From Lachnospiraceae bacterium OM04-12BH (GTDB taxonomy: Bacteria > Bacillota > Clostridia > Lachnospirales > Lachnospiraceae), in assembly GCA_003490145.1 (NCBI GenBank), contig QULQ01000003.1:97712-161711 (forward strand): a stretch of DNA of 64,000 bases. Direction: 5' to 3'. This document shows positions 42,078 through 64,000 of this stretch, in pieces (the stretch's first letter is position 1; each line of letters starts with the position of its first letter). A program made the position numbers and the translations under genes. The notes under the pieces were generated by a model that was not told where the DNA came from, made no database searches, and saw only the letters and a program-made list of their open reading frames with translations.

Positions 42078-42120
42078 AAATGCTGCAGAGAAAATAATAA
42101 TAGGAACCATTACTTACTTG

Positions 42121-42149
42121 TTGATTTATCCATATGGGTATTATATAAT
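42121..42149 (+). promoter_or_regulatory. Promoter for the diguanylate cyclase gene
   Basis: TTGATT, a 17-base spacer and TATAAT, 24 bases before the GTG start. It may also read into perR, as only 25 bases separate those genes. Confidence 0.7.
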
Positions 42150-42172
42150 GATGACAGATTAACGAGATAAAT

Positions 42173-43291: not shown

Positions 43292-43316
43292 GAACAATTC
43301 CTAATAAGGAGAGTTG

Positions 43317-43709: not shown

Positions 43710-43760
43710 GAAGCTGGTATCAGATTTTAGAAAACAGCAGAGAAGACGGAGGTGAGGTAA

Positions 43761-44544: not shown

Positions 44545-44569
44545 TATTTGATATAGTAAGAAAAGTTAC

Positions 44570-44604
44570 AAAAAGCAGAGAAGCTGTGCATTCTCTGCTT
44601 TTTT
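44570..44604. terminator. Bidirectional terminator
   Basis: AAAAAGCAGAGAA and TTCTCTGCTTTTT arms around GCTGTGCA. It serves the hemerythrin gene and probably the convergent surface-protein gene. Confidence 0.88.
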
Positions 44605-44639
44605 ACTATATATTTTTCTCTGCTCAAGGGAAGATGATC

Positions 44640-47951: not shown

Positions 47952-50490
47952 GGGAAACACTTCCTTTCTCATTATGTTCAATATCATTGTTTGTGCCGGA
48001 CTCAGTATTTTCGTCTGTGCCGGGTGCTGTGTCAGCTGGTGTGCCGCCAGAGGGACTTTCCTCCAGACTGGTTGCCTCACCGGAGAGGATCGTGGCGTTC
48101 ATGCTTCCACGGATAATACCGTTGAAGCTTCCTTCTACCATACCGTTAACCTGACCTCTGATGATACCGGATACACGGGTGGCACCCGTAAAGGACTGTG
48201 GTGTGAGATTGATCCTGCTCTTCAGCTCGAAGCTGGTCTTTTCAATGATAAAGTCACCAAGTACCAGGATCTGTGGCAGGACACCAAGTACCAGGATGAT
48301 GGAAATAATGGTACCACGGCTTAAGCAGGTTCCGATCGCTGCGATGATCGGATTGGTCGTCATGACACCGATCAGGGCACCGGCAGCAGCCAGAATACTT
48401 CCCGAGGTAAAAATGGTTGGGAAGGACTGGTTCAGGGTAACGATGATCGCTTCCTTGGGCGGCATGGACTGTTTCAGATCCTTATAATGGCTGGAAATAA
48501 CGATCGCATAGTCAATATTGGCACCCATCTGGATGGAGTTAACGATCAGGTAGCCCAGGAAGTACAGCGGTGAATCCTGGAGATAAGGGAAGGAGAAGTT
48601 GATCCAGATACTTCCCTGGATGACCAGAATCAAAAGTACAGGTAATCCTGCCGAGTTAAAGGTAAACAGCAGGATAATGATTACAAACAGGGCAGACAAT
48701 ACACTGATCAGCATATTATCCTGGCTGAAGGAAGATGATAGGTCATAATCACTGGTGGAGTTACCAACGACATAAACAGAAGCATCATCATAGTATTTAT
48801 CAGCCTCCTGATGGATGACCTTCAGGAAATCAAAGGTCTGCTGGCTTTCCTCTGGAAGGTTCAGATAGACGACAAGCCTGGTCCAGTCATCTGTTTTCAG
48901 CTGAAGCTTTGCTTTTTCAAGCTGATCAAACAGATCATCCAGGGTATCCTGGATATCACCCTCCAGGGTGATATTTCCTTCTTCCATCTGATCCTTTAAA
49001 AAGAAAAACATGTCAAAAAGAGGAACCTTGTATTTTTCAATTCCGTTTATGATCTGGCCATACTGGTTATTATTGACGGCATAGGCTGTATACAGGAGAT
49101 TTGCCACTTCATATTCCACACCGGAAAGCTCAGAAAATTCACGTGGATTCAGGGCATCCGTCAGGTAATAGCCGTCCATGGCCTCCACGCCGGCAAGACC
49201 GGTCGTTGATTTGACCTCCGTATGGCCTTCAAGATCCTTCAGCAGGGCACTTTCTGATTCATAATCACCGGAGGGGACAAGCACAGCTACCATATTGTTG
49301 GTGCCAAAGGTATTTTTGATCTTCTGGTAGGCAATCTGGCTTTCATTCTGCTTGGCGGTGGTCAGATCCGTATAGCTGTAACAGTAAGGACACTTGTTCG
49401 CAAAAATACATGCTACAACTGTAATGGCAACAAATAACGGAGGAACAATGAATCTTGTTTTTACGTCAAACTTTCCCACAACAGTGATAGGAGGGATCAG
49501 ATTTTTATGCTTGGTCTTATCGATCAGATTACTGAACAGCATCAGAAGACCGGGCATAAGGGTAAATACGGAAAGAAGACTCATCATGATCGCCTTGATC
49601 AGGACAACTGCCAGGTCGCGGCCGATCAGGAAGTGCATGAAGGCCAGCGCTGCAAGACCGGATACAGTGGTCAGGGAGGAGGATGAAATCTCCGGGATCG
49701 CTTTGCTTAAGGCAGCAATGCAGGCTTCTCTTGCCGGTTTGGTTTCGTGTTCATCGCTGAATCTATGACAGAGGATAATGGCATAGTCGATTGCCAGCGC
49801 CAGCTGCAGTACTACAGTAACCGAATTGGAAATAAAGGAAATGGTACCGCACAGGAAGTTGGTACCCATGTTCATAAGGGCAGCTACGCCGAAGGTGGCG
49901 ATCAGTACGGGAACCTCCGCATAGGCTCTGGAAGTCAGGGTCAGTACTATGACGATAATGATAGCGGCAATGACCACAATAACCTGCATTTCGCTTTGCA
50001 GTTCGGCTGCAGTATCGGAACCAACCTCCGAATTTATGTAGGTATCATAGCCGGACAGCTTATCTTCAATCTCGTGGATCGCATTGACACTGACCTCGTC
50101 TGTGGTAGTTCCGTCAAAGGTAACATCAAACAGGGCAGAAGAATTTTTGTAGTGATCCTCTGTGTTGTCAAATACAGCGTCGGTGACGCCATCAATCTCC
50201 TTCAGGTCTTCGGCAAGCTCTTCACCCTTCTCATAGGAAATGTTGGAAACCATGACCCGGGCAGTACCATAGGTGACAAACTGGTCATTCATGATCGTCA
50301 GTCCCTGCCTGGTTTCGGTCGAATCCGGCAGGTAGGTTGTGATATCATTTTCAACCTTGACCCATCCATTTGCGATAATACAGAAAATAATGGCAAAAAT
50401 ATAAAGCAGGAAAAACAGGTTCCGTTTATCAACGATAAAGGTTGCCACCTTTTCCATGGGAGTTGCCTTATTCTCTCCAGTCTCGTTCAT
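47944..50490 (-). CDS. MMPL/RND-type membrane transporter
   Basis: 848 residues with the duplicated RND layout: helix 1 near 30-46, a first extracytoplasmic domain, a bundle of five helices at about 170-330 (LALAIDYAIILCHRFSDE carries the family's charged motif), a single helix, a second external domain with coiled helices, and a second bundle at about 600-750 (MGANIDYAIVISSHYKD). Proton-driven MMPL proteins move lipids or surface polymers. The long Gly/Thr/Ser-rich cytoplasmic tail (GIIRGQVNGMVEGSFNG repeats) is unusual. It is coupled to the GLUG protein gene. Confidence 0.93.
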   Translation of the reverse strand: MNETGENKATPMEKVATFIVDKRNLFFLLYIFAIIFCIIANGWVKVENDITTYLPDSTETRQGLTIMNDQFVTYGTARVMVSNISYEKGEELAEDLKEIDGVTDAVFDNTEDHYKNSSALFDVTFDGTTTDEVSVNAIHEIEDKLSGYDTYINSEVGSDTAAELQSEMQVIVVIAAIIIVIVLTLTSRAYAEVPVLIATFGVAALMNMGTNFLCGTISFISNSVTVVLQLALAIDYAIILCHRFSDEHETKPAREACIAALSKAIPEISSSSLTTVSGLAALAFMHFLIGRDLAVVLIKAIMMSLLSVFTLMPGLLMLFSNLIDKTKHKNLIPPITVVGKFDVKTRFIVPPLFVAITVVACIFANKCPYCYSYTDLTTAKQNESQIAYQKIKNTFGTNNMVAVLVPSGDYESESALLKDLEGHTEVKSTTGLAGVEAMDGYYLTDALNPREFSELSGVEYEVANLLYTAYAVNNNQYGQIINGIEKYKVPLFDMFFFLKDQMEEGNITLEGDIQDTLDDLFDQLEKAKLQLKTDDWTRLVVYLNLPEESQQTFDFLKVIHQEADKYYDDASVYVVGNSTSDYDLSSSFSQDNMLISVLSALFVIIILLFTFNSAGLPVLLILVIQGSIWINFSFPYLQDSPLYFLGYLIVNSIQMGANIDYAIVISSHYKDLKQSMPPKEAIIVTLNQSFPTIFTSGSILAAAGALIGVMTTNPIIAAIGTCLSRGTIISIILVLGVLPQILVLGDFIIEKTSFELKSRINLTPQSFTGATRVSGIIRGQVNGMVEGSFNGIIRGSMNATILSGEATSLEESPSGGTPADTAPGTDENTESGTNNDIEHNEKGSVSHE

Positions 50491-50549
50491 TTGAAATCAA
50501 TCCTTTCTTGTAGGTTCTGTTTTAATTAGTCTTTTTTTTAACAAAAAAA

Positions 50550-50578
50550 ATTATAGGCTTCTTTTACTGAATAGACAA
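50550..50578 (-). promoter_or_regulatory. Promoter for the MMPL-GLUG operon
   Basis: On the minus strand: TTGTCT, a 17-base spacer and TATAAT, about 60 bases before the MMPL start. Confidence 0.7.
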
Positions 50579-50712
50579 TAAGCAAAAAGGCGCAGATGAT
50601 AAAAAACTATAAAAATTTATGTAAGGATTTGGAAGCGTTTGACTTTGCAGAAGCTTCTTATTATAATCAACTTGTGTCATTTAGGATAAATACACAGAAA
50701 GAAGGAATTAAC

Positions 50713-51849
50713 ATGACGAAAATTGATATTGTATCCGGATTCCTGGGTGCAGGAAAAACTACATTAATAAAGAAGCTTTTAAAAGAAGCCCTTGCTGATA
50801 CAAAAACAGTTCTGATCGAGAACGAATTTGGTGAGATCGGAATTGACGGCGGGTTTCTGAAGGAATCCGGTATTGAGATCAAGGAAATGAATTCAGGCTG
50901 TATCTGTTGTTCCCTCGTAGGTGATTTTGGAACATCCCTGAAGGAGGTGCTGAAGACCTATGCACCGGAGCGTATTCTGATCGAGCCTTCAGGTGTTGGC
51001 AAGCTTTCTGATGTTATGAGGGCAGTACAGAATGTCATTGATGAAAAGGATGTTGTACTGAACAGTGCAGTAGCTGTTGTAGATGCCTCCAAGTGCAAGA
51101 TGTACATCAAAAACTTCGGAGAGTTTTTCATTAACCAGATCGCACATGCAGGAACCATTATCCTGAGCCGTACCGGCAATATTTCAGAAGAGAAGCTGAA
51201 TACCTGTATTGCTCTGATACGTGAGCATAATGACAAGGCAACGATCGTGACAACTCCCTGGGACGAGCTGGATGGAAAGGATATTCTGGATACCATCGAG
51301 GGAGCTAAGGATCTGGAAGCAGAATTATTAAAGGAGATCATGGAGCAGCATGAGCATGATGAGGAGGAAGAGCATCATCACCATCATGACCACGATCATG
51401 ACCATGAGCATCATCACGACCACGACGAAGATCATGAGCACGGACATCACCACGACCATGACGAGGATCATGACCATCACCACGACCATGATCACGAGCA
51501 TCATCATGAACATGATGAGAACTGTACCTGCGGCTGCCACGATCATGACCACCATCATCACCATCACCACGCTGATGAGGTATTCACCAGCTTTGGTATG
51601 GAAACAGCAGCTGCTTACACGAAGGAAGAGATTGAAGAGATTCTGAAGGCACTTGGCGATGAGGAAGCCTATGGTATCGTGCTGAGAGCAAAGGGTATGG
51701 TAGCAGACAAAGACGGTGGCTGGATCTACTTTGACTATGTTCCTGAAGAGAGTAATGTCCGTGCAGGCAAGCCTGATGTGACCGGCAAATTCTGTGTGAT
51801 CGGTTCAAAGCTTAGGGAAGATGCACTGAAGAAGCTGTTCGAGAGATAA
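50713..51849 (+). CDS. CobW/G3E-family GTPase with a histidine-rich metal-binding loop
   Basis: 378 residues from the ATG at 50713 (AAGGAATTAAC upstream). G3E motifs: P-loop GFLGAGKTTL, SGCICCSL (CxCC metal site) and IEPSGVG. Residues 216-295 form a His/Asp/Glu-rich stretch (EHHHHHDHDHDHEHHH and similar) with a CTCGC motif, a strong zinc or nickel reservoir. A CobW C-terminal domain follows. Such proteins are GTP-driven metallochaperones for zinc, cobalt or nickel. No Zur-type site was identified upstream. Confidence 0.93.
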   Translation: MTKIDIVSGFLGAGKTTLIKKLLKEALADTKTVLIENEFGEIGIDGGFLKESGIEIKEMNSGCICCSLVGDFGTSLKEVLKTYAPERILIEPSGVGKLSDVMRAVQNVIDEKDVVLNSAVAVVDASKCKMYIKNFGEFFINQIAHAGTIILSRTGNISEEKLNTCIALIREHNDKATIVTTPWDELDGKDILDTIEGAKDLEAELLKEIMEQHEHDEEEEHHHHHDHDHDHEHHHDHDEDHEHGHHHDHDEDHDHHHDHDHEHHHEHDENCTCGCHDHDHHHHHHHADEVFTSFGMETAAAYTKEEIEEILKALGDEEAYGIVLRAKGMVADKDGGWIYFDYVPEESNVRAGKPDVTGKFCVIGSKLREDALKKLFER

Positions 51850-51874
51850 AGACCAGAAAAGAGGAAGTAAAAAA

Positions 51875-52804
51875 ATGAAACCCGTATATATTATCAATGG
51901 ATTTCTGGAAAGCGGAAAGACAGAATTTATATGCTATACACTGGGACAGCCTTATTTCCGGATCAAGGGAAGCACCCTTCTGATCGTCTGTGAGGAAGGA
52001 GAGAATGAATACAGTCAGGAGCTTCTGTCAAAAACAAAGACGGTTATGGAAGTGATCGAGGATGAGGAGGATTTCAATCCTTCCCATCTTCAGGAGCTGG
52101 AAAAGAAATACAAGCCGGAAAGGATCATCATTGAGTACAACGGTATGTGGAACTTCAAGAATATGAAGCTTCCCTGGTACTTTACCGTAGAGCAGCAGAT
52201 CACGATTATTGATGCATCCACCTTCCCAATGTACTATACCAATATGAAATCCCTGCTTGCAGAAATGCTCCGGAAATCCGAGATGATCATTTTTAACCGT
52301 TGTGACGGTATTGAGGATCTAAGCTCCTATAAGAGAAATGTAAAGGCGATCAATCAGCAGGCAGATATCATCTTTGAGGATGCCAATGGGGAAGTCAATC
52401 AGATTTTTGAAGATGATCTGCCCTATAAGCTGGATGCACCGATCATTGAGCTGGATAATGAAGGTTACGGTATCTGGTATCTGGATTCCCTTGATAATCT
52501 GGATCGTTATATTGGAAAGACCATCCAGTTTGTAGGCATGGTAGTAAGACCAAAGGATTTTCCAAAAGGATACTTTATCCCGGGAAGAATGGCGATGACC
52601 TGCTGTGCAGAGGATATGGCATTTCTTGGCTTTGCCTGCAAATATGACAAGGCAGATACCCTGACAGAAAAGCAGTGGGTCAAGGTAACAGCCAGAGTAG
52701 AGAAGGAATATTTCTCCGATTATGAGGGAGAAGGACCGGTGCTGCATGCCATCAGTGTAGAGCAGACAAGGCAGCCTAAGGAGCCGGTGATCAGCTTTAC
52801 CTGA
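51875..52804 (+). CDS. Second CobW-like GTPase with a DUF1980/YcgQ-like C-terminal domain
   Basis: 309 residues. The N-terminal domain has a variant P-loop GFLESGKTEF and lacks the CxCC motif; instead it retains IIEYNGMWN where CobW has IEPSG. From about 210 the sequence (GKTIQFVGMVVRPKDFPKGY, then RMAMTCCAEDMAFLGFAC) matches the C-terminal pattern of the YcgQ/DUF1980 family, whose genes accompany YcgR-type permeases. It lies 25 bases after the His-rich CobW gene, so a shared metal-handling job is probable. Confidence 0.75.
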   Translation: MKPVYIINGFLESGKTEFICYTLGQPYFRIKGSTLLIVCEEGENEYSQELLSKTKTVMEVIEDEEDFNPSHLQELEKKYKPERIIIEYNGMWNFKNMKLPWYFTVEQQITIIDASTFPMYYTNMKSLLAEMLRKSEMIIFNRCDGIEDLSSYKRNVKAINQQADIIFEDANGEVNQIFEDDLPYKLDAPIIELDNEGYGIWYLDSLDNLDRYIGKTIQFVGMVVRPKDFPKGYFIPGRMAMTCCAEDMAFLGFACKYDKADTLTEKQWVKVTARVEKEYFSDYEGEGPVLHAISVEQTRQPKEPVISFT

Positions 52805-52827
52805 GAAAATGAGAGGGAGACAAGGAT

Positions 52828-53742
52828 ATGTACCATTATACTGCCATACAGTGGTTATTTTTCTTCTATTTTTACTGTTTCTTTGGATGGGTTTTTGAAT
52901 CAACCTATGTTTCCATCAAAAGCAGGCATTTTGTAAACAGAGGGTTTATGAGAGGCCCTTTCCTTCCTATCTATGGAAGCGGTGCAATCATGATGCTTGT
53001 AGTTTCCATGCCATTTCAGGATAATCTTATCCTGACTTATCTGGCTGGCTGCGTGGGAGCAACGCTTCTTGAACTGGTGACAGGCATGACAATGGAGGCA
53101 CTTTTTAAAGTCAGATACTGGGACTACTCTAACCAGAAGTTTAATTATAAGGGACATATCTGTCTTTCCTCGACCATAGCGTGGGGATTCCTGACGATCT
53201 TTATGACGCAGTTCCTGCATAAGGGAGTAGAAAAGCTTGTGTTATCCATTCCCTATAATATACTGACGATCCTGACGGTAGTGCTGTCGGTTTATATTGT
53301 GGCTGATTTCACGCTTTCCTTCAAGGCTGCTATGGATCTGAGAGATGTCCTGATCGGACTGGATAAGGCAAGAGCCGAGATGGAGAAGATCCAGAAGCGT
53401 CTGGATGTGCTGATCGCAGTGGCAAATGATGAGAGAGAAACCAGAAAGCTGGAGAGAGAAGAACGCGCTGATGAGTGGATGGAGAATCTGGAGGAGAGGT
53501 TTTCAAAGGTCAGGGAACATCTTACCACAAATCCTGGAGCCTTTATGGACAATGTGAGGGATGAGCTTGCAGAGCTCCGCAGTAAGTATCTGGTTGAGAA
53601 GGAGCATCGTCTGCAGTTTGACCGCCTGAAGGATTTCTATCAGAGAAGCCTCATCAAGGGAAATCCGGGTATGTATTCCAGAAAATTCAATGAAGCACTG
53701 GAAGAACTGAAAAAAGCTGTGAATGAAAGAAAGAACAAGTAA
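52828..53742 (+). CDS. CmpB-type putative ABC-transporter membrane protein
   Basis: 304 residues. The N-terminal 170 contain four or five membrane helices and the family signature FFGWVFESTYVSIKSRHFVN and RGFMRGPFLPIYGSGA; the C-terminal 130 are a charged coiled coil. It matches the CmpB-like (PF06541 type) family, whose function is not established. It is the third gene of the CobW unit, 23 bases downstream, hinting at a membrane component of metal handling. Confidence 0.85.
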   Translation: MYHYTAIQWLFFFYFYCFFGWVFESTYVSIKSRHFVNRGFMRGPFLPIYGSGAIMMLVVSMPFQDNLILTYLAGCVGATLLELVTGMTMEALFKVRYWDYSNQKFNYKGHICLSSTIAWGFLTIFMTQFLHKGVEKLVLSIPYNILTILTVVLSVYIVADFTLSFKAAMDLRDVLIGLDKARAEMEKIQKRLDVLIAVANDERETRKLEREERADEWMENLEERFSKVREHLTTNPGAFMDNVRDELAELRSKYLVEKEHRLQFDRLKDFYQRSLIKGNPGMYSRKFNEALEELKKAVNERKNK

Positions 53743-53795
53743 GATTTTGGAATAAATAAAACTTTTCAAAAAAATAAAAAAATTTTAAAAAGCTA

Positions 53796-53824
53796 TTGAC
53801 GAAACCCGCAGAGGATGATATTAT
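53796..53824 (+). promoter_or_regulatory. tRNA-Leu promoter
   Basis: TTGACG, a 17-base spacer and TATTAT, ending 21 bases before the mature tRNA. Confidence 0.75.
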
Positions 53825-53845
53825 ACCATTTGTGACGTGAGTCAA

Positions 53846-53930
53846 GCGGAAGTGTCGGAACTGGCAGACGAGCAAGACTAAGGATCTTGTGAGCATTGCG
53901 CTCGTGTGGGTTCAAGTCCCATCTTCCGCA
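53846..53930 (+). tRNA. tRNA-Leu (anticodon AAG)
   Basis: Class II tRNA with a long variable arm. Acceptor GCGGAAG pairs with CTTCCGC (discriminator A at 53930), the anticodon stem CAAGA/TCTTG encloses CTAAGGA with anticodon AAG, and the T loop is GTTCAAGTC. CCA is not encoded. A recombination target for mobile DNA is likely, as a phage remnant follows. Confidence 0.95.
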
Positions 53931-53934
53931 TAAG

Positions 53935-53968
53935 AAAACCTCAGTATTTACTGGGGTTTTTCTTTTTT
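53935..53968 (+). terminator. Terminator after tRNA-Leu
   Basis: AAAACC.CAGT pairs with ACTG.GGTTTT, followed by TCTTTTTT. Confidence 0.72.
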
Positions 53969-53993
53969 GTGGTGTGTTTCATGTTTCATTAAG

Positions 53994-54247
53994 GAAGTAT
54001 ACAAAGCCAATGATCCCCTGGGACTTTATGGATATAACTGCGCGTATAATCATTATGTATGATTCGAAGGTGCATCCCTACGGAGGTTAGAGCAAAGATA
54101 AAGGGCAAGACCGCAGAATATAAAGAGTTCTGCAATGCCTGTGGAGTACCGGCAGCTACAAGCAGGCTCAGATATGAATGCGGCACATCTGACCTTAAGA
54201 AGCAATTTGTTACAATGAATATAGCGGAAGATAAAAGAAATCTTTAA
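53994..54247 (+). pseudogene. Degenerate phage minor capsid protein fragment
   Basis: One frame reads EVYKANDPLGLYGYNCAYNHYV, then a TGA, then FEGASLRRLEQR; another frame continues as VRAKIKGKTAEYKEFCNACG to a stop at 54247. The YGxNCxHxxxx-EG pattern and the following helical tail resemble the C-terminus of siphophage minor capsid proteins. At least one stop and one frameshift break it. It is a prophage scar next to tRNA-Leu; confidence in the family is moderate. Confidence 0.5.
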
Positions 54248-54323
54248 GTATAGTGGCTCAGTTACATGATAAGGAAATTAACGCGAAATATTATTTTTCT
54301 GATTATGGAGATAAGGTGGCAAC

Positions 54324-54395
54324 ATGAAGTATAAGCATATTGTTTTTGATATTGACGGTACTCTGATTGATACGGAGTATGCTGTGTTTTGGTAA
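54324..54395 (+). pseudogene. 5' fragment of a HAD-family hydrolase
   Basis: 23 codons, MKYKHIVFDIDGTLIDTEYA, carry HAD motif I (DIDGT) and end at TAA. Full members are over 200 residues, and no continuation appears in any frame before the next gene. Confidence 0.75.
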
Positions 54396-54458
54396 TGAAA
54401 GACCGGACGAAAATGAATTCGGTGTTTTCAAGGTATAGCAGACAGGAGAGGAGAAATC

Positions 54459-55190
54459 ATGGGAAACGAAGCAGGACAATGGATTATGTACGGTGTGGAC
54501 TGGGATGATCCGGAGTGTATCCACACGGTGGAAGAAGCAGCTATATATATTAATGAAGTCGGATTTCTGCCGCTGTTTAAAAATGAGATTCCGGGCTTTT
54601 CCCTTGAGGAGAGAACTGTGCCGGAATACTGGTGGTGCGATGATCCGGAAAGAGATCCATGGATGTGGAGAACCATCATTGCCAGAAAGCATGATATCGT
54701 CTATGGCAAGTTTTTTGATAAAAAGGCAGGCTTTATTTCCAGACAGTGGCTGCCTGTATTTGCCAACTACCGCAGGGATGGTTATGACTTTGATGCTCTT
54801 TATGAGGATGGGAAAGCTCCAAATAAGCACAAGAAGATCATGGATAATTTTATGGAAGACAAGGAAGATGCCGAGGTCTTTTCCAGCGTCCTGAAGAAGC
54901 AGGCAGGCTTTGGAAAGGACGGGGAGAAGGGATTTGATGGAGCGATCACTTCCCTTATGATGCAGATGTATCTCTGTAACTGTGATTTCAAAAAGCGTGT
55001 GAATAAAAAGGGAATGGCATATGGTTGGGATGTGGCGGTATATTCATCTATAGAGCATATTTTTGGATATGACTACGTGACATCCTGCTACCGGGAGGAT
55101 CCACAGAAATCCTGGAACCGGATCGTGAACCATATACATGAGATATATCCCATTGCGACGGATCAGCAGATCAGGAAAGTGCTGAAATAG
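54459..55190 (+). CDS. Uncharacterised protein, possibly AlkZ-related
   Basis: 243 residues, acidic and aromatic-rich, no membrane segment or signal. Conserved-looking stretches are PEYWWCDDPERDPWMWRTII (residues 50-69), FDGAITSLMMQMYL and HEIYPIATDQQIRKVLK. The overall pattern, a Trp-rich N-terminal part followed by a winged-helix-like end, suggests relationship to the AlkZ (YcaQ) DNA glycosylase-related group, but I am not sure. SD GGAGAGGAGAAATC precedes the start. A bidirectional terminator follows. Confidence 0.7.
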   Translation: MGNEAGQWIMYGVDWDDPECIHTVEEAAIYINEVGFLPLFKNEIPGFSLEERTVPEYWWCDDPERDPWMWRTIIARKHDIVYGKFFDKKAGFISRQWLPVFANYRRDGYDFDALYEDGKAPNKHKKIMDNFMEDKEDAEVFSSVLKKQAGFGKDGEKGFDGAITSLMMQMYLCNCDFKKRVNKKGMAYGWDVAVYSSIEHIFGYDYVTSCYREDPQKSWNRIVNHIHEIYPIATDQQIRKVLK

Positions 55191-55562
55191 GATTTATGAA
55201 GCTATAAAAGGAGCCTCTGGCATTTTGTGGATCATTCACAAGGTCAGCGGCTCCTTTTATTATGTACTATAATCATTTGGGAGATAGTGTGCATCGGTTA
55301 GATTCTTTCAGCGAAGCTCTTATAATACTCAGAACAAAACTCATTAATTTTCTCAATAATCTTTTTCATAGTTTCCACCATACCCTTTCTGTGACAAGTG
55401 AATAACTGCTTTTCAAGTTTCCTTATGGGGATCAGGCCTGACTTCCTTTTGATGATTATAATGTAACATATTGCTTTTATAATGTGAAATACATATAATA
55501 AATATATTATAATACTTAAAAGGTATTGCAAAATCCGAGGGACAGATGAAGAGGGAACAGAT
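55191..55562. other. AT-rich intergenic region before the LysR gene
   Basis: Contains the 55206-55258 terminator and an AT-rich segment (a TATAAT near 55507) likely holding the LysR promoter. A short minus-strand frame (27 codons ending at 55298) has a plausible start but nothing else to support it. Confidence 0.45.
55206..55258. terminator. Bidirectional terminator
   Basis: AAAAGGAGCC and GGCTCCTTTT arms enclosing a smaller hairpin. Confidence 0.8.
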
Positions 55563-56474
55563 ATGGAGTTAAGACACATCAGATATTTTAAGGCAGTAGC
55601 AGAAGAAAAGAACTTTACGAAAGCGGCAGAGAAGCTGGCGATTGCACAGCCGCCCTTGAGCCGGCAGATCCAGGATCTGGAGGCTGAGCTGGGAACACCC
55701 CTTTTTATCAGGTCACCGCATAAGGTTACGCTGACAGAGGAGGGCGAGTTGTTTCTGCAGTATGCTTCCCAGATTCTGGATCTGGTGAACCGGTCTGAGG
55801 AAGAATTGAAGGAGATGAAGGAGGGACTGCAGGGAACCCTTTATATTGCTTCCGTGGAAGGCTGTGGACCGAGGCTCTTTGCAGAATGGATCGCCGCCTT
55901 CCAGAAGAAGCACCCACATGTACAGTATAATCTCTGGAATGGGAATACGGATGATGTGAACAGCCGGGTAGCGAAGGGACTTTGTGAGATCGCCATGATC
56001 ACAGCTCCTTACAATACGGAAGAATTTCATGTGCTTCCCGTATATGAGGAACCGTGGGTGGCAGTGATCCCGAAGGGGCACCTGCTGTACTCAGAGGAAA
56101 ATGCGCCCGTAAAGCCGAAAGAGCTTCTGCCCTATGATCTGCTGATTCCTTCCAGAGAGTCCAGAAAAGGGGAAATTGACAAATGGTTTGAGAAGACGGG
56201 ACAGATGCCGGTGATCCGTGGACGGGTAGCCCATATGATGAATGCCTATGAGCTGAGTCTGCATGGAGTTGGGATTTCCATTTATCCTGCATCCATCTCT
56301 GCATTGATCCGGGACAGGGATGTGTGCGTGCGGCAGGTGGATCATCCGGATGCACATGCCTCCTATGCTCTTATATGGAAGAGAAACCATACCTTGTCAC
56401 ATGTGGCAGAGGAATTCATCCAGTCGGTACAGGAGATATTGCTGCTTACAAGGGGGATCACAGAACTGAAATAA
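55563..56474 (+). CDS. LysR-family transcriptional regulator
   Basis: 303 residues. The N-terminal LysR helix-turn-helix is canonical (MELRHIRYFKAVAEEKNFTK, then AEKLAIAQPPLSRQIQDLEA), followed by a periplasmic-binding-like effector domain. It lies 100 bases upstream of the HpcH-type aldolase and is oriented the same way, so it may regulate it together with its own gene. Confidence 0.94.
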   Translation: MELRHIRYFKAVAEEKNFTKAAEKLAIAQPPLSRQIQDLEAELGTPLFIRSPHKVTLTEEGELFLQYASQILDLVNRSEEELKEMKEGLQGTLYIASVEGCGPRLFAEWIAAFQKKHPHVQYNLWNGNTDDVNSRVAKGLCEIAMITAPYNTEEFHVLPVYEEPWVAVIPKGHLLYSEENAPVKPKELLPYDLLIPSRESRKGEIDKWFEKTGQMPVIRGRVAHMMNAYELSLHGVGISIYPASISALIRDRDVCVRQVDHPDAHASYALIWKRNHTLSHVAEEFIQSVQEILLLTRGITELK

Positions 56475-56575
56475 ATCTGATTTTGTAAAGCCCTTAACAG
56501 GCAGGAGGGATGCCTGTGAGTATAATAAGGGACAAGAAAAAGATTGTCAGTTTGACAATGGAGAGGAGTTCATCT

Positions 56576-57346
56576 ATGAAATTAATATCAGACAGACTGA
56601 AAAACGGTGAAAAGCCCATAGGAACCTTTTTGAATCTGGGATCCCAGACGGCGGCAGAGTGTGTGGCGATCGCAGGAATGGATTACTTTATCGTAGATCT
56701 GGAGCACAGTCCCTTTGGCCTCGCAGAGGCAGCGGATTGTATCAGAATGGCGAAGCTGAAGGGGATTTCTCCCCTTGTCAGAATACCGGAGATCAGCAGA
56801 GCCAATATTTTAAAGCACCTGGATGTGGGAGCAGAGGGTATCATCATTCCCGGTCTGAAGACCAGAGAGGAAGCAGAAAAAATTGTGGAATATGGCAAGT
56901 ATACACCACTGGGAAGCAGAGGCTTCTGTCCTACCAGAGTTTGCGAGTTTGGATATGGAGATGCCTTTGCAAACGGTATTCTGGAATATACCAGAAAGAC
57001 CAATGAAGAGACAATGCTGATCCCTCAGTGTGAGACGCTGGAATGCCTGGCAGACATTGAAAACATTGTATCAGTAGAAGGAATCAGTGGTATTTTTATC
57101 GGACCCTTTGATCTTTCCCTTGCCATGGGAATCCCGGCACAGTTTGACAGACCAGAATTCAAGGAAGCTATTACGAAAGTGCTTACGGTATGCCATGAAA
57201 AGAATAAGCCGGTATTTATCTTTGCACCGAATAAGGAAACAGCAAGGCTCCGACTGGAGCAGGGCTTTGACAGTGTGACCGTGAATGGTGATCTGAATGT
57301 CATGACAGAAGCTTATATGGAGATCGTAAAGAGCATCCGGGCATAA
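56576..57346 (+). CDS. HpcH/HpaI-type aldolase (2-keto-3-deoxy acid family)
   Basis: 256 residues from the ATG at 56576 (GGAGAGGAG upstream), rather than the longer frame. Metal and substrate residues of class II pyruvate aldolases are visible: VDLEHSPFG, VRIPEISR, PQCETLECL (metal Glu) and FIGPFDLSLAMG (metal Asp). The enzyme cleaves 2-keto-3-deoxy acids to pyruvate and an aldehyde. Its final 27 codons and terminator are duplicated at 63800, on the other side of the maltodextrin cassette. Confidence 0.92.
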   Translation: MKLISDRLKNGEKPIGTFLNLGSQTAAECVAIAGMDYFIVDLEHSPFGLAEAADCIRMAKLKGISPLVRIPEISRANILKHLDVGAEGIIIPGLKTREEAEKIVEYGKYTPLGSRGFCPTRVCEFGYGDAFANGILEYTRKTNEETMLIPQCETLECLADIENIVSVEGISGIFIGPFDLSLAMGIPAQFDRPEFKEAITKVLTVCHEKNKPVFIFAPNKETARLRLEQGFDSVTVNGDLNVMTEAYMEIVKSIRA

Positions 57347-57465
57347 AAGAGTATAAAACAGAGACAGAAAATCAGGGCTTCCAAAGTGTGATCCACTTCA
57401 GAAGCCCTGATTTATTTTTCCTGCAGGGAGCACTTATGCTTTTTCCTGATACTCCTTTAAGATCT
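57265..57465. repeat. Left copy of a long direct repeat flanking the maltodextrin cassette
   Basis: At least 201 bases, identical to 63800-64000 except for two bases (57277 and 57280), both synonymous in the aldolase. It spans the aldolase 3' end, the terminator and the aminotransferase 3' end, and may continue to about 57690 beyond what the window shows for the right copy. Confidence 0.97.
57369..57413. terminator. Bidirectional terminator between aldolase and aminotransferase
   Basis: AAATCAGGGCTTC and GAAGCCCTGATTT arms, then ATTTTTC. Duplicated at 63904-63948. Confidence 0.9.
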
Positions 57466-57691
57466 GCTTCATGGCAGCAGCTGCACCAAGAAGACCAACT
57501 CTGTTGCAGCAGAATCCGGTAGCTGTGATACCAAGATAGCCGATGATCTCAGGATTGGAAAGGATATAACCGATTCTGGCACCTGCCATACCGTAGATCT
57601 TGGAGAAGGTACAGATCACGATCAGGTTTCTGTCATCTGCGATCTGGGAAATCATGCTCTTATAGGAAGGATCCTCAATAAAATCAAAATA
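57434..57691 (-). pseudogene. 3' remnant of a class I/II aminotransferase
   Basis: Only about 85 C-terminal codons survive: FDFIEDPSYKSM and ICTFSKIYGMAGARIGYI, the latter with the PLP-binding SK motif of histidinol-phosphate/aspartate-type aminotransferases. Homology stops near 57690 where the cassette begins. The intact gene should start beyond the window at the right copy. Confidence 0.85.
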
Positions 57692-57705
57692 AGAGAGATT
57701 ATTTT

Positions 57706-58725
57706 TTAGTCAAGAGGTCTTGTACTTTCGCCCTGAATAATGACAGGAAGAGTGGTATAACTTTGGATGAGAAGTTCCGGGTTCTGCAGTTTCCGGATCA
57801 TCATGGAGCCTGCCTGCACACCCATGTCATAGACATTAATATCTACAATGGTAAGCTGAGGGTCGATGATACTGGAATAAGGATAGACATCAAAGGTAAG
57901 TACGGCTATATCATCCGGAATACGAAGATTATGCCGGCTGATTGCCTGAACAACGCCTAGTGCGAGTGTATTGTTTTCACAGACAATTGCCTGAGGTGGA
58001 GTAGAATGTGACAGCATATCCGAGGTAATAGAGAGAGCCTGCTGACGGCTGGAATCAGTATTTCCGATATGGGAAGCAGGAATATGATAACCCCGGTCTA
58101 ACATTCCTGCCATGAAGCCTTTCTGACGCTGGGCAGAAATATAATCGGTTTTACGTTCTCCGATAAAAGCAACATCTGTATAGCCACAGTCAACCATATG
58201 GGCTGCAGCATATTCACCGGCAAGCGCATGATTGGTATCTACCCAGCACAGCCGGCTTTCAAATCCCGGATGACCGATGATAATATGTGGGAAGCCGGCA
58301 TCCAGGATGAGATTTGCAATCTCTTTATTAATAGCGGAGCCATGGATGATAAGACCATCTGAAGACCGGCTGGTGATCACTTCGCTGACTTTTTCACCAG
58401 AATAACGTTCCTCGGATGTATTAACCAGGGTCAGAGAGTAGTTATTTTCGGATAAAGTATGATGCACACCACACATGATATCAAACATATGAGGATTCTG
58501 ATAGGCAATATCTTTTTCTAAATTTGTGAGATAGACAATATTAGAGGTGGCACCTTTTGCAAAGCTGACTGCCCTGGAATTGGGCGTATAGTGGAGCCTT
58601 TCAATTGCTGCCTGTACTTTCTCAACAGTAGCAGGGGAGATGGTTGTCCAGTGATTTAAAACTTTGGAAACAGTTGATTTTGAGACTCCCGCCTCATTGG
58701 CAACATCAGTAATGGTAACAGACAT
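57706..58725 (-). CDS. LacI-family regulator of the maltodextrin cassette
   Basis: 339 residues from the ATG at 58725 (AGGAGGTTTTTT upstream); the longer frame has no ribosome site. The helix-turn-helix is classical: MSVTITDVANEAGVSKSTVS, then KVLNHWTTISPATVEKVQAA. A sugar-binding periplasmic-like domain follows. Divergent from the binding-protein gene; candidate operators lie at 58754 and 58893. Likely a MalR-type repressor. Confidence 0.92.
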   Translation of the reverse strand: MSVTITDVANEAGVSKSTVSKVLNHWTTISPATVEKVQAAIERLHYTPNSRAVSFAKGATSNIVYLTNLEKDIAYQNPHMFDIMCGVHHTLSENNYSLTLVNTSEERYSGEKVSEVITSRSSDGLIIHGSAINKEIANLILDAGFPHIIIGHPGFESRLCWVDTNHALAGEYAAAHMVDCGYTDVAFIGERKTDYISAQRQKGFMAGMLDRGYHIPASHIGNTDSSRQQALSITSDMLSHSTPPQAIVCENNTLALGVVQAISRHNLRIPDDIAVLTFDVYPYSSIIDPQLTIVDINVYDMGVQAGSMMIRKLQNPELLIQSYTTLPVIIQGESTRPLD

Positions 58726-58753
58726 AAAAAACCTCCTGAAAAATTGTATAAAT

Positions 58754-58781
58754 TTAGGAATATAGTATAGCGGTTTCCTAA
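58754..58781. promoter_or_regulatory. Candidate LacI operator 1
   Basis: TTAGGAA and TTCCTAA arms 14 bases apart; the right part reads CGGTTTCCTAA, shared with operator 2. Confidence 0.5.
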
Positions 58782-58892
58782 CAAAGTCAATTGCCTTTTG
58801 AAAATAAATGTTGTAAATATAGGGGATAAATGATAAATATAAAATTAGCAAGAGGAACCGATTGCATGAAAAATAGGGAAAATAAGAAAACG

Positions 58893-58910
58893 GTTTCCTG
58901 AATGGGAAAC
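58893..58910. promoter_or_regulatory. Candidate LacI operator 2
   Basis: GTTTCCTGAATGGGAAAC, inverted arms GTTTCC/GGAAAC, just before the binding-protein ribosome site. It shares CGGTTTCCT with the site at 58771-58779. Confidence 0.55.
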
Positions 58911-58930
58911 AAAATTATGGAGGTATTTTT

Positions 58931-60190
58931 ATGAAGAAAAGAATGTTAAGTCTTTTGCTCTGCGCCGTAATGACAATTGGAACATTGTCTGGTTGTGGAA
59001 GCAAAACAGAAAAGGAAGAAAAAACAACAGAGGCACTTGGGAATGACGCAGAGGGGGAAGTGACAGAGGTTAAAATCTGGCATGATGGGGACGAAAACAT
59101 CATGCAGACAATTGCAGATTGTGCCAATGAAAAATTAGCAGAGGACAACATTAAGGTCACATTTGAGAAGAAGAGCGGACTTACAGATCAGCTGCAGTTG
59201 TATGGAAACGATGAGTCGAATGGACCGGATATGTATTTATATGCACATGATTCACTGGGAACATTTGCTGAAATGGGAATATTGGCACCAATTACAGATG
59301 TAATCAGCGAAGATGTTATGGCAGATTTACTGCCGATGACGGTAGAGGCAGGCAACTATAAAGATACACAGTATCTGATGCCGGTTTATTATGAAACATT
59401 ACTTTTTATGTATAATAAAGCAAAATGGGATGGTGAGGTGCCAGAGACTACAGAGGAGCTGTATGATTATATGGCAGCACATACGGATGTAGATGCAGGA
59501 ACTTATGCATTGGTAAACCAGCATTCAACAGCATATAATGTTGCACCGTTCATTAATGGTTTTGGTGGATATATTATAGATAAGGATGCGAATCCTGGGT
59601 TAAATACACAGGAGACCAAGGATGCAATTGCTTATAATAAGAAATTTGCTGAATTGGAAGCAGATGGTGACTATAATACAGTAACTGCATTGTTTAATGA
59701 AGGTCAGGCAGCAGCGATTATTGGCGGACCATGGCTGGTATCCGGAATAAAAGCAGCTGGAATTGACCTCGGAATCAAATCTCTGGCAGATTTTAAGCTT
59801 CCGAATGGAAATGGACTTGCACCATATTCCGGAGTACAGAGCATTGGCGTTTTAAAATATGCAGCAGAGAATAAGAAAGAAGCACTTGCAAAAGTATTAG
59901 AAGCAATTGCCAGTCCGAAAGCAGGTGTTGCACTTGCAAATAAATCGAATTGTGCACCAGCTAACAGCAAAGCATACGAGGATGCAGATGTAGCTGCAAA
60001 CGAAATGATTATGGCAATGAAAGCAACGGCAGAGACTGCACAGCCAATGCCAAATATTCCACAGATGAGTGTTATGTGGGGACCGGCAGAAGAATTTCTG
60101 GCAGCAGTCAATAAATCAGGAGAAGATATTGATACAGCAGCAGAGACTTATCAGCAGAAAGCATTAGATGCAATTGCAGATATGCAGTAA
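58931..60190 (+). CDS. Maltodextrin-type ABC transporter substrate-binding lipoprotein
   Basis: 419 residues. Lipoprotein signal MKKRMLSLLLCAVMTIGTLSGCG with lipobox LSGC, then a MalE-type binding domain (KIWHDGDENIMQTI, LMPVYYETLLFMYNKAKWDG, AAIIGGPWLV, MPNIPQMSVMWGPAEEFL). GGAGGTATTTTT precedes the start. With two permeases and a GH13 enzyme it forms an alpha-glucan uptake unit; the ATPase is elsewhere. Confidence 0.94.
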   Translation: MKKRMLSLLLCAVMTIGTLSGCGSKTEKEEKTTEALGNDAEGEVTEVKIWHDGDENIMQTIADCANEKLAEDNIKVTFEKKSGLTDQLQLYGNDESNGPDMYLYAHDSLGTFAEMGILAPITDVISEDVMADLLPMTVEAGNYKDTQYLMPVYYETLLFMYNKAKWDGEVPETTEELYDYMAAHTDVDAGTYALVNQHSTAYNVAPFINGFGGYIIDKDANPGLNTQETKDAIAYNKKFAELEADGDYNTVTALFNEGQAAAIIGGPWLVSGIKAAGIDLGIKSLADFKLPNGNGLAPYSGVQSIGVLKYAAENKKEALAKVLEAIASPKAGVALANKSNCAPANSKAYEDADVAANEMIMAMKATAETAQPMPNIPQMSVMWGPAEEFLAAVNKSGEDIDTAAETYQQKALDAIADMQ

Positions 60191-60232
60191 CTGATATGCC
60201 GCGAAAAGAGTAGAAAAGTTAGGAAGAGAAGT

Positions 60233-61132
60233 GTGTATATGAAAAACAAACGGAAGTTAATACCCTGGCTATACAGTATGCCGGCGCTGATATTGATTGG
60301 AATGATTATTGTGTTTCCGATTCTGTATACGGGCTATATTTCATTGACCAACATGAATCTTTTTCACTGGTCTGATTATGAGTTCGTCGGATTATCCAAT
60401 TATAGCAGAGCATTATTAAAAGCAGATTCCGGTTTCTTAGGAGCTTTGCTTACAACATTACTTTGGACAGCATTGAATATCGTGATACAGGTAGTGGCAG
60501 CATATTTTATTGCATTGGGATTTCAAAGGGAAGATTTTAAGGGGAAACGTGTATACAAGACACTTTTGATGTTTCCATGGGCAATGCCTGCTTATGTATC
60601 AATCCTTTTGTGGAGAGTCGGTATCTATAATACAGAGTTTGGACTTCTGAATAAGATTTTAGTGGCACTTGGTTTTGGAAAGGTAAATTTCCTTTCCACC
60701 AATGTGCCGGCATTTCTCTCCTGTATGACCTTAAACCTGTGGATGGCTTTGCCATTTATGATTATGATGATAGATGGCGCATTGTCCGGTATTGACCGGA
60801 GCTATTATGAAAGTGCAGAATTGGATGGAGCAGGTTTCTGGTCAAAGAATATATATATTACCATACCGGCAATGAAGGGAATCATTGCACCGGCGGTTAT
60901 TATGACAACATTTACCACATTTAAGCAGTTTGATATTGTATACCTTCTTACGATGCAGAAGGGAGCATATTCCGGGGCAACGTTGCAGACCGTTATTACA
61001 TATGCACAACAGAATGCATTTGTTTCAAATAATTATGGATTGTCATCGGCAGTGTCTATCATTATCTTTTTCCTCATAATGGTATTTTCATTGTTTACGA
61101 ATCGGGGAGTCAAGGAGGAAGACTATGACTAA
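60233..61132 (+). CDS. Maltodextrin ABC transporter permease (MalF-like)
   Basis: 299 residues from a GTG; an ATG two codons later is equally possible. Six or more membrane segments and the EAA loop SYYESAELDGAGFWSKNIYI near residue 190. It forms the channel with the next gene, which it overlaps by eight bases. Confidence 0.93.
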   Translation: MYMKNKRKLIPWLYSMPALILIGMIIVFPILYTGYISLTNMNLFHWSDYEFVGLSNYSRALLKADSGFLGALLTTLLWTALNIVIQVVAAYFIALGFQREDFKGKRVYKTLLMFPWAMPAYVSILLWRVGIYNTEFGLLNKILVALGFGKVNFLSTNVPAFLSCMTLNLWMALPFMIMMIDGALSGIDRSYYESAELDGAGFWSKNIYITIPAMKGIIAPAVIMTTFTTFKQFDIVYLLTMQKGAYSGATLQTVITYAQQNAFVSNNYGLSSAVSIIIFFLIMVFSLFTNRGVKEEDYD

Positions 61133-61970
61133 GAAAAAGAAAAAACAGATGGTACAGCTTGGCGTATTGCACGTTGTATATATTGTTTTATGCCTGCTGG
61201 CATTAGTGCCAATTTTGTATGCTTTAAATCTTTCTTTTGAAAAGGGAAGCGGAGCATTATCTTCTGGTCTGTCATTGCTGCCAAAAGATTCTTCACTGGA
61301 CAATTATAAACAGATATTAACACAGAAACCATTTTTACACTGGTTTTATAACTCGGCAGTATTGAGTTTTTTTACAATGGTTATTGCAATTGGATTTGCT
61401 ATGGTATCGTCTTATTCCTTTTCAAGATATCGCTTTAAGGGCAGAAAAAGTATTTTGAAATTATTGTTGTTACTGAATGCCTTTCCACAGATTTTATCGA
61501 TGTTTGCGTTATTCCGACTGTTAAAACAGCTGAATATGCTGGATACCAAACTCGGACTGGTTATCATTTATGCCGGCAGTATGTGCATTTTCTCTATCTG
61601 GAATATGAAGGGATATTTTGATACGATTCCGGTAGAGATTGAAGAGGCATCGAAAATTGATGGTGCTACAGATTTTCAGTTGTTATGGAAAGTAGTAATG
61701 CCTCTGGCACGTCCGGCAATTATTGTTACTTCCGTAATGGTATTGATTTTTGTCTGGAATGAATATCTGTTTTCCACAACATTTTTACTCAATGAAAATA
61801 GTTATACACTTGCAGGAGGACTGTATCAGTTACAATCAAATGATTATACCAGAAGCTGGGGAATGTTTTCTGCGGCAGCAATTCTGGTGTCTGTTCCAGT
61901 GCTGATTATTTTCTTCTGTATACAGAAATATATGGTATCCGGTCTTACTGCTGGTGGAGTGAAAGGATAG
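61125..61970 (+). CDS. Maltodextrin ABC transporter permease (MalG-like)
   Basis: 281 residues, six membrane segments, EAA loop EIEEASKIDGATDFQLLWKV near 170 and the MalG-type end YMVSGLTAGGVKG. It is translationally coupled to the preceding permease. Confidence 0.93.
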   Translation: MTKKKKKQMVQLGVLHVVYIVLCLLALVPILYALNLSFEKGSGALSSGLSLLPKDSSLDNYKQILTQKPFLHWFYNSAVLSFFTMVIAIGFAMVSSYSFSRYRFKGRKSILKLLLLLNAFPQILSMFALFRLLKQLNMLDTKLGLVIIYAGSMCIFSIWNMKGYFDTIPVEIEEASKIDGATDFQLLWKVVMPLARPAIIVTSVMVLIFVWNEYLFSTTFLLNENSYTLAGGLYQLQSNDYTRSWGMFSAAAILVSVPVLIIFFCIQKYMVSGLTAGGVKG

Positions 61971-61977
61971 AAACAGG

Positions 61978-63756
61978 ATGGAAAAAGAAGCAATTTTACA
62001 TATCCCATTGTCACAATTTGCCTTTGCAGAAAGAGAAGACCGGCTGGTAATCCGATTGCGGTGTAAGAAGAATGATTTAAAACGCTGTGTATTGCTCTGG
62101 GGTGACCGTGTGGCAATAGAGGAACCGATGCCAGTGCAGCAGAATGAGATGGAATGCGTGGCATCAGATATGCTTTATGATTATTACGAGATTAAGATTC
62201 ATTCTCCATTTACCAGGGTGTGTTACTATTTCCGGCTGGAGGATGAAATAGAGAGTCTTTACTATTACGGAAGAGGATTTACTACCCAAATATCCTGTGG
62301 AAGAGCAGAATATTTTCAATTTCCTTATATCCGGCGGGAAGATATTGTAAATATTCCTGAGTGGGCAGAAGATATTGTGATGTATCATATTTTCCCAGAT
62401 AGTTTTGCAAATGAAAGACAGGAGCTTCGCATGAAGCAGAACAAAAAAGTATTACTGCCGGATGGCAGATATGATGCGGAGAAGAAGAAGCTGCCGGATA
62501 GAATCTGCAGGAATCATCTGGGCGGCACATTGCAGGGAATTATAAAGACTCTCGATTATCTGACGGGACTTGGAATTAACTGTATTTATTTAAATCCGAT
62601 TTTCGAAGCAGCATCTTATCATAAATATGATACGATTGATTATTTTGAAGTAGACCCGTGTTTTGGAACCAAAGAAGATTTAAAAGAGCTGGTGCAGCAA
62701 AGCCATGAAAGAGGCATCCGGGTTATATTAGATGGGGTATTTAATCATTGTGGAGCTGATTTTTTTGCCTTTCGTGACGTAAGGGAAAAAGGCAGAGCGT
62801 CAAGGTATTATGACTGGTTTTATCATCTGGAAGATACCATACAGTATGCCGACCCGCCTAACTATGAAGCCTTTGCTTATGTGAAAGAGATGCCAAAACT
62901 TAATACTGGAAATCCGGAAGTGGCAGATTATCTTTGCAATGTGGGGATTTACTGGATAAAGGAAGCAGATATAGATGGATGGCGGCTGGATGTTGCAAAC
63001 GAAATCAATCATGAATTCTGGCGGACTTTTCGCCATGCAGTAAGAAAGGTAAAACAGGACATTTTCCTGATCGGTGAAATCTGGGAAGAGGCAGGAGTCT
63101 GGCTGCAGGGAGACCAGTTTGATTCTACGATGAATTATACATTTTCTTATTTGTGCCGGGACTTTTTTGGAAGGGGAGAACTTTCTGTCAGCAGCTTTGA
63201 TGCCCAGATGCAGCATATGATTTACCGTTATCCGGAACAGGTCAGTCTGGTGCAGATGAATTTCTTAGACTCTCATGATATCCCAAGATTTTTAAGTTGT
63301 TGTAATGGTGAACGAAAGAGAATGGAACTGGCATTTTTCTATCTCTTTATGGGGGTAGGTGTGCCGTCAGTATTTTATGGGGATGAGGTATATATTGATG
63401 GTACGGAAGAATCAGAATACAGGGCAGCCATGGACTGGCAGAGAGCATCCGGACAATCAGATGAAACAGAACCACAGTCTTTATTGCCGTATCAGGATAA
63501 TTTAATTGGAAAATTCAAGGAGTGGATAGCGCTTCGGAGAGAGCATCTGGCATTACGCAGGGGAAATTACCGCACCATCTATTGTAATGATGTTACAGGT
63601 GTTTATGCATTTTCACGCTGCTATGAAGAAGACCGGGTGCTGGTAGTGCTAAATACAGGTCCTGACAAAGTGGAACTTACTTCGGCAGAGATACAGGAGC
63701 TGCAGGAAAAAAATATAGAACTGTCTTCTTATGAAGGAAGACTTGTGGCATTCTGA
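61978..63756 (+). CDS. GH13 neopullulanase/cyclomaltodextrinase-type enzyme
   Basis: 592 residues without a signal peptide. The N-terminal 110 residues look like a CBM34-type domain; the barrel carries LDGVFNHCG, the nucleophile Asp 338 (GWRLDVANEI), acid/base Glu 367 (LIGEIWEEAG) and Asp 434 (NFLDSHD), then a beta-sandwich end. It hydrolyses imported maltodextrins or cyclodextrins in the cytoplasm. Last gene of the cassette. Confidence 0.94.
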   Translation: MEKEAILHIPLSQFAFAEREDRLVIRLRCKKNDLKRCVLLWGDRVAIEEPMPVQQNEMECVASDMLYDYYEIKIHSPFTRVCYYFRLEDEIESLYYYGRGFTTQISCGRAEYFQFPYIRREDIVNIPEWAEDIVMYHIFPDSFANERQELRMKQNKKVLLPDGRYDAEKKKLPDRICRNHLGGTLQGIIKTLDYLTGLGINCIYLNPIFEAASYHKYDTIDYFEVDPCFGTKEDLKELVQQSHERGIRVILDGVFNHCGADFFAFRDVREKGRASRYYDWFYHLEDTIQYADPPNYEAFAYVKEMPKLNTGNPEVADYLCNVGIYWIKEADIDGWRLDVANEINHEFWRTFRHAVRKVKQDIFLIGEIWEEAGVWLQGDQFDSTMNYTFSYLCRDFFGRGELSVSSFDAQMQHMIYRYPEQVSLVQMNFLDSHDIPRFLSCCNGERKRMELAFFYLFMGVGVPSVFYGDEVYIDGTEESEYRAAMDWQRASGQSDETEPQSLLPYQDNLIGKFKEWIALRREHLALRRGNYRTIYCNDVTGVYAFSRCYEEDRVLVVLNTGPDKVELTSAEIQELQEKNIELSSYEGRLVAF

Positions 63757-63799
63757 AAAAGACAAGCGACATTACAAAATACTTGTGTTATGCCCCCAT

Positions 63800-63881
63800 C
63801 TTTGACAGTGTAACAGTGAATGGTGATCTGAATGTCATGACAGAAGCTTATATGGAGATCGTAAAGAGCATCCGGGCATAA
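63800..63881 (+). pseudogene. 3' remnant of the HpcH-type aldolase
   Basis: Encodes only FDSVTVNGDLNVMTEAYMEI and the final residues before the stop. The rest of the aldolase is absent. It matches the left copy except for two synonymous bases. Confidence 0.92.
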
Positions 63882-63903
63882 AAGAGTATAAAACAGAGAC
63901 AGA

Positions 63904-63948
63904 AAATCAGGGCTTCCAAAGTGTGATCCACTTCAGAAGCCCTGATTT
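63904..63948. terminator. Second copy of the aldolase-aminotransferase terminator
   Basis: Identical in sequence to 57369-57413. Confidence 0.9.
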
Positions 63949-63968
63949 ATTTTTCCTGCAGGGAGCAC

Positions 63969-64000
63969 TTATGCTTTTTCCTGATACTCCTTTAAGATCT
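63969..64000 (-). CDS. Aminotransferase, 3' end only in the window
   Basis: The last codons (LKEYQEKA, stop) of the gene whose truncated copy lies at 57434-57691. The body is outside the window, so whether it is intact cannot be judged here. Confidence 0.7.
   Translation of the reverse strand, partial: ILKEYQEKA

Follow-up and report, generated by a model that had tools for sequence, protein, structure and literature searches.

A maltodextrin-type sugar operon of probable foreign origin between direct repeats of a host gene junction in a Lachnospiraceae genome

Gram-positive polysaccharide utilisation loci (gpPULs), as described for Roseburia and Eubacterium rectale, link a glycoside hydrolase, a carbohydrate importer and a transcriptional regulator (PMC5320581). 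In pneumococcus, a duplication of 3,276 bp has been reported that lacks flanking repeats, and the passages concerned leave its mechanism unclear (PMC3784515). The cassette described here is a small gpPUL in which a polysaccharide-degrading enzyme (GH13), a maltodextrin-type ABC importer (binding protein and two permeases) and a regulator (LacI) are found in one locus, the sugar specificity being predicted from sequence; it lies between two direct copies of a host gene junction. No matching case was among the papers listed by literature searches on direct-repeat-flanked carbohydrate operons in Lachnospiraceae and on assembly chimeras.

Judged by its genes, the host is a close relative of the Lachnospiraceae MAG RUG11155 (genome G001, locus L001). 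The AddA protein encoded in the window (the whole stretch of 64,000 nucleotides that was analysed) at 1737-5360 has 91% amino acid identity to that of RUG11155, the next-best AddA among 397 sampled genomes of the family reaching 54% when compared in full and up to 58% in part, and six long pieces of the interval 36600-56500 match RUG11155 at 83-95% nucleotide identity. Other genomes of the genus of RUG11155 were compared with the window by way of the junction, the cassette and the aldolase; among the 37 genomes of this genus, an aldolase at 96% identity was present only in RUG11155, and seven others had relatives at 28-32%.

Three further loci in the window deserve mention in their own right. 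The interval 30711-38447 encodes a large FtsK/SpoIIIE-domain protein, presumably of the EssC type of type VII secretion, and downstream an Mbeg1-like/DUF6792 protein (37059-38447) which could be a secreted substrate. A repeat rich in His and Asp within a CobW-family protein (51354-51578) is probably involved in metal binding. The subtilase with a CspB prodomain encoded at 40296-42077 is, we assume, of the kind found among spore germination proteases.

The features of the repeat and the cassette are given below, with identities to RUG11155 for the flanks and, for the cassette, to genome G436, a member of another Lachnospiraceae genus.

56510..57346, plus strand: HpcH/HpaI-type aldolase, intact, the left neighbour (PF03328, 108 bits; 96% amino acid identity to RUG11155)
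57265..57465, plus strand: left repeat copy, with the aldolase 3' end, the terminator and the last aminotransferase codons; homology to RUG11155 extends to 57693
57369..57413, no strand: two-way intrinsic terminator-like hairpin, left copy (inverted repeat with 20-bp arms; RNA fold)
57434..57693, minus strand: remnant of a class I/II aminotransferase, 5' part missing (PF00155, 44.8 bits for 57437-57703; from blastn against L001, alignment and translation)
57694..57705, no strand: left join, up to 12 bases fitting neither parent, beside the lacI stop codon (compared with loci L106, L107 and L001)
57706..58725, minus strand: LacI-family regulator, 339 aa (PF00356/PF13377; ATG at 58725 behind AGGAGG; 92.6% amino acid identity to G436)
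58726..58930, no strand: divergent control region, 205 bp, with two CGGTTTCC sites whose positions nearly coincide in three loci
58931..60190, plus strand: MalE-like solute-binding lipoprotein (PF13416, 84.5 bits; 93.8% to G436)
60239..61132, plus strand: MalF-like permease (PF00528, BPD_transp_1; 94.9% to G436)
61125..61970, plus strand: MalG-like permease (PF00528, BPD_transp_1; 92.8% to G436)
61978..63756, plus strand: GH13 enzyme of the maltodextrin glucosidase/cyclomaltodextrinase type (PF00128, 245 bits; PF02903, Alpha-amylase_N, 108 bits; 78.6% to G436)
63757..63791, plus strand: last donor-like bases (95% match to record MT835682.1 ends at 63791; counterpart at L106 4233-4205 agrees at 10/12)
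63792..63799, no strand: right join, with a filler of 8 bp that matches neither parent
63800..64000, plus strand: right repeat copy, running on to the window end
63904..63948, no strand: right copy of the two-way hairpin, 148 bp past the GH13 stop

A sequence-only reading of this DNA, made before the present analysis, had reported a direct match of at least 201 bases between 57265-57465 and 63800-64000, with two synonymous mismatches, and both statements hold. The copies agree at 199 of 201 positions (99% identity), and no second direct repeat reaching 60 bp was reported across all 64,000 bases of the window; this repeat was not produced by chance. Its left end is abrupt (57264 G versus 63799 T), and the right copy is still matching where the window ends, at 64000, so that 201 bp is a lower bound for its length. 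The mismatches, 57277 G versus 63812 A (GTG/GTA, Val) and 57280 C versus 63815 A (ACC/ACA, Thr), both affect third codon positions of the aldolase. They occupy positions 13 and 16 of the 201, and the chance of both falling within the first 16 is 0.006 (16x15 / 201x200). At 57277 the right copy has the base of RUG11155, and at 57280 the left copy, the right copy and RUG11155 all differ. The clustering of the mismatches and the base at 57277 favour some exchange with a divergent allele, but agreement with RUG11155 fails at 57280; as evidence that the right copy came from a related allele, the mismatches are no more than suggestive.

The convergent gene pair that the cassette was said to split is indeed evident in the left copy, where aldolase and aminotransferase are adjacent and convergent, and the same junction is repeated beyond the cassette. 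The aminotransferase query matched only the RUG11155 locus (counted as three overlapping copies) among 100 loci, so that the adjacency of the two genes is taken from the window. RUG11155 lacks the cassette and has, between the same aldolase and aminotransferase, a 4-kb block (L001 1651-5427), with genes that we take to encode an M13-type peptidase, an ABC ATPase and a permease. The presence of a different block in the nearest relative suggests that the interval between these two genes may be a variable spot. An empty site, to be looked for in relatives according to the sequence-only reading, was found in none of the 37 genomes of the genus of RUG11155, the interval in RUG11155 itself holding those other genes.

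The truncation of genes in both copies, also part of that reading, was borne out for the left aminotransferase, which is cut by the cassette, and for the right aldolase, a stump of the last 82 bp; the left aldolase is whole. Relative to RUG11155, in which the aminotransferase is whole (365 aa), the piece in the window has moreover lost about 255 bp from its interior, in frame, and its match ends at 57693; given this loss and this end, it is a remnant. The visible part of the right copy stops 8-20 bp short of the internal break (57473-57485), so the loss may predate or follow the duplication.

The cassette has other nearest kin than its flanks. It matches G436 at 82% nucleotide identity over 57722-63761, the operon of G436 standing among other genes, and genome G093 at 71%. 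Both belong to one genus, distinct from that of RUG11155, and in the eight genomes of it that were examined the cassette was matched in five, three of these only in parts, with the operon complete in two. A gene that we take to be AroB-like follows beyond lacI in both G436 and G093. Across the 397 sampled genomes of the family, the cassette search matched 162, many of the matches listed being short GH13 pieces; the best-scoring among the matches listed was that of G093, at 71% over most of the operon. This operon type is common in Lachnospiraceae. In the 37 genomes of the genus of RUG11155, identity was at most 72% over more than 500 bp among the matches listed, and the similar operon of RUG11155 itself is 41-58% identical in protein. 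In agreement with this, the GC content of the cassette is 40%, against 41-42% for the donor-type loci and 44-46% for the remainder of the window. That operon and flanks have different nearest kin indicates transfer between genera, and these sequence affinities indicate a donor bacterium from another Lachnospiraceae genus, in agreement with the earlier view of it as foreign DNA (cassette nearest G436, flanks nearest RUG11155). The closest donor relative is imperfect, the GH13 enzyme of G436 being only 79% identical.

A closer match to the operon end was provided by MT835682.1 (L044), an unannotated phage-collection record from a human faecal scaffold. It starts inside GH13 and matches the last 455 bp of the donor-like DNA (63337-63791) at 95%, its 139-aa GH13 end being 95.7% identical in amino acids. 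To the right of GH13, the record and G436 have a common context of two long pieces at 85 and 91% nucleotide identity. Filed as 'Bacteriophage sp.', MT835682.1 has chromosomal-looking gene content, presumably genes for a methylglyoxal synthase, an Hsp20 protein, a transporter and a GGDEF regulator, and it is probably bacterial DNA in a virome.

The borders of the insert follow those of the operon closely, lying about 12 bases beyond the lacI stop and 35 beyond the GH13 stop, and the insert proper measures about 6.1 kb rather than the 6.3 kb first given. On the left, the nucleotide match to G436 is clear from 57722 only, and the LacI protein alignment reaches residue 338 of 339. On the right, donor homology stops at 63791 inside a promoter-like site, and comparison of this join with both parents revealed no shared homology. 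With the borders thus placed within about 12 bases on the left and 8 on the right, the joining event is open to study.

Such borders bear on the possibility that the contig was wrongly joined across species, in the assembly or the library, with the junction counted twice. The window may stem from a metagenome contig. Clusters from protein searches are confined to short contigs, of at most 6,226 bp for the 100%-identical GH13 cluster and of at most 2,150 and 1,175 bp for the 99%-identical aldolase and LacI clusters, respectively, so that no independent long contig confirms the layout. Such an artefact is nonetheless improbable: the right join offers no k-mer-sized stretch in common, its filler is foreign to both parents and assemblers do not make up such bases, the insert comprises an entire operon whose cut ends lie at the short distances given above from its end genes, and the two repeat copies differ at two sites.

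It is even less probable, to the point of being a slim chance, that the operon was brought in by some small mobile element or an excisable island ending in long direct repeats, as the direct repeats at both ends and the operon-precise borders might invite one to think. The repeats match recipient-type DNA and are not terminal repeats of an element's own, of which none was found; no inverted pair occurs at both borders among the 25 longest of 28 pairs; and the operon of G436 and the operon end of MT835682.1 have other genes around them and nothing that matches the repeat. A domain search of the five cassette genes, which other open reading frames of at least 100 aa overlap, recovered regulator, transport and GH13 domains only, with no transposase, integrase, relaxase or other recombinase, as had been noted before with respect to transposase and integrase. 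There is no tRNA attachment site at the border, the sole tRNA gene in 50000-64000 being that for tRNA-Leu. A transposon and a tRNA-gene island were rejected on the lack of a recombinase and of a terminal inverted pair and on the distance to this tRNA gene; a prophage was weighed on gene content only, and rejected. The tRNA-Leu (AAG) gene itself, at 53846-53930, is situated 3.3 kb left of the repeat and explains an 85-bp match that was the one result of a further phage search.

The sequence-only reading had favoured integration by a single crossover, in which a circle made of the cassette and the junction of a related strain recombines with the resident junction and so duplicates it (Campbell-type). 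Direct copies of host homology flank the insert, both mismatches lie at the start of the right copy with one matching RUG11155, and the damage to the left, incoming aminotransferase piece would be accounted for. In E. coli, moreover, linear DNA is described as circularising by ligation before a single crossing-over (PMC3240628). The circle itself, however, demands two earlier non-homologous joins, the right one with an 8-bp filler. Moreover, 72,556 plasmid records held no near match to the unit, and 50,697 phage records held one match, of the operon end only and in chromosomal-looking DNA. A more sensitive plasmid search gave 10 records, with matches to the GH13 region at 60-80% only, and in viral contigs neither a match to a 54-base piece of the repeat (0 matches) nor a relative of GH13 or the aldolase was found. 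We regard a single crossover as possible but rather unlikely, and it explains the spread of the cassette better than its origin.

We consider that a donor fragment was captured during repair of a broken or stalled fork, with duplication of 0.4-0.7 kb of host DNA, at a probability of about one half. This is simpler than a single crossover, since the latter needs a ready-made circle. The fork would have broken or stalled within the aminotransferase gene; one end of the donor fragment would have been joined near 57694, and the other, with the filler in between, to the sister copy at position 57265. The 429 bp between the joins would thereby end up on both sides of the insert, or 684 bp if the right copy is free of the internal deletion. 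The aldolase would retain its end via the left copy, and an intact aminotransferase would be expected rightward of 64000. If there is one, both neighbours came through the insertion undamaged, and this would account for the survival of the insertion. Filler bases and a nearby deletion fit fork-repair and template-switching events. Counting against capture, a one-step duplication gives no reason for the mismatches to be concentrated at the join. Excision is plausible by RecA recombination between the copies, which would remove the cassette and restore a single junction.

Two other ways of joining DNA ends were considered beside capture at a fork. Ku was found in neither of the two genomes searched, G001 and G436 (0/2; a control search gave 1/14, in B. 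subtilis), so that classical end joining lacks support. Homology-facilitated illegitimate recombination would have acted on linear DNA of which one end paired with the junction and the other was joined without homology; the non-homologous right join with its filler would suit this. The process is a described one (PMC3240628). ComEC-type genes occur in both G001 and G436 (2/2), and ComEC was also found in 10 of 14 control genomes, including E. coli, and is no proof of competence. As the left join has no recognisable homology and hence no visible anchor, we hold this route to be distinctly improbable.

The duplicated junction would also have consequences for expression of the operon, in that host two-way terminators on both sides would replace the terminator left in the donor. 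In G436, lacI is followed by a strong terminator-like hairpin (L106 10381-10407, -24 kcal/mol, z -5.5) which is absent from the cassette in the window, and the stretch from the GH13 stop to the repeat forms no stable hairpin (-3.6 kcal/mol, z -0.75). The hairpin of the left copy, some 290 bp past lacI, folds at -27.3 kcal/mol (z -6.5; 0/200 shuffles as good). A scan of the window for terminators did not report it, its internal loop being the probable reason, but RNA folding reveals it. With this two-way hairpin in both copies, the leftward lacI transcript and the rightward malEFG-GH13 transcript could each come to an end. Between lacI and malE, the two CGGTTTCC sites are found at nearly equal positions in the window, G436 and G093, and from their placement are probable LacI operators.

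The gene content first assigned to the cassette, i.e. LacI, binding protein, two permeases and GH13, was borne out by domain matches, and its designation as a maltodextrin cassette stands at the family level: the best NCBIfam models of four of its proteins were MalE, MalF, MalG and maltodextrin glucosidase, all of them below cut-off. The cassette lacks a gene for the importer ATPase; ABC sugar importers of this type usually share one ATPase. A separate observation concerns GH13 (61978-63756 versus L106 4280-6097), which is 79% identical to G436 versus 93-95% for the four other cassette proteins. This divergence suggests faster evolution of GH13 or recombination inside the operon.

It is tempting to speculate that sugar operons may pass as a whole from one gut Lachnospiraceae genus to another without mobile elements and dock by sub-kilobase duplication of a convergent junction. 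Neighbouring genes would be left whole, host terminators would be provided on both sides and the insert could be removed by RecA, such that the event would be neutral and reversible. In this generality the idea is doubtful, and one case alone changes little. If true, docking of this kind would have been overlooked by scans for mobile elements. Should the two-sided duplication recur elsewhere, it would suggest a way for nutrient operons to spread among gut Firmicutes with no mobile element involved, and a reason for their settling at convergent junctions.

With the gpPULs of PMC5320581, the cassette has in common the ABC importers and LacI regulators that are frequent in the table of that paper, and the GH13 that is present in Ros-4. 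Unlike those loci, it is located in a genome foreign to it, with duplicated host DNA on both sides, and the passages concerned are silent on transfer. It also resembles the single-crossover and homology-facilitated illegitimate recombination events of PMC3240628, in that foreign DNA comes to lie in a chromosome without a mobile element and, for a single crossover, in that homologous DNA lies on both sides of the insert. As described there, however, these processes start from a donor bearing host homology, and no such molecule was found for the cassette. As in the transformation-made tandem duplications of pneumococcus (PMC3784515), a host duplication may be tied to sister-chromatid recombination, but there the duplications extend over about 100-900 kb of host DNA, with no 6-kb foreign operon between sub-kilobase copies. 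Transfers of such operons are ordinary, and only the manner of splicing is a little unusual here. The cassette is thus a good, well-preserved example of known processes, and not new in kind.
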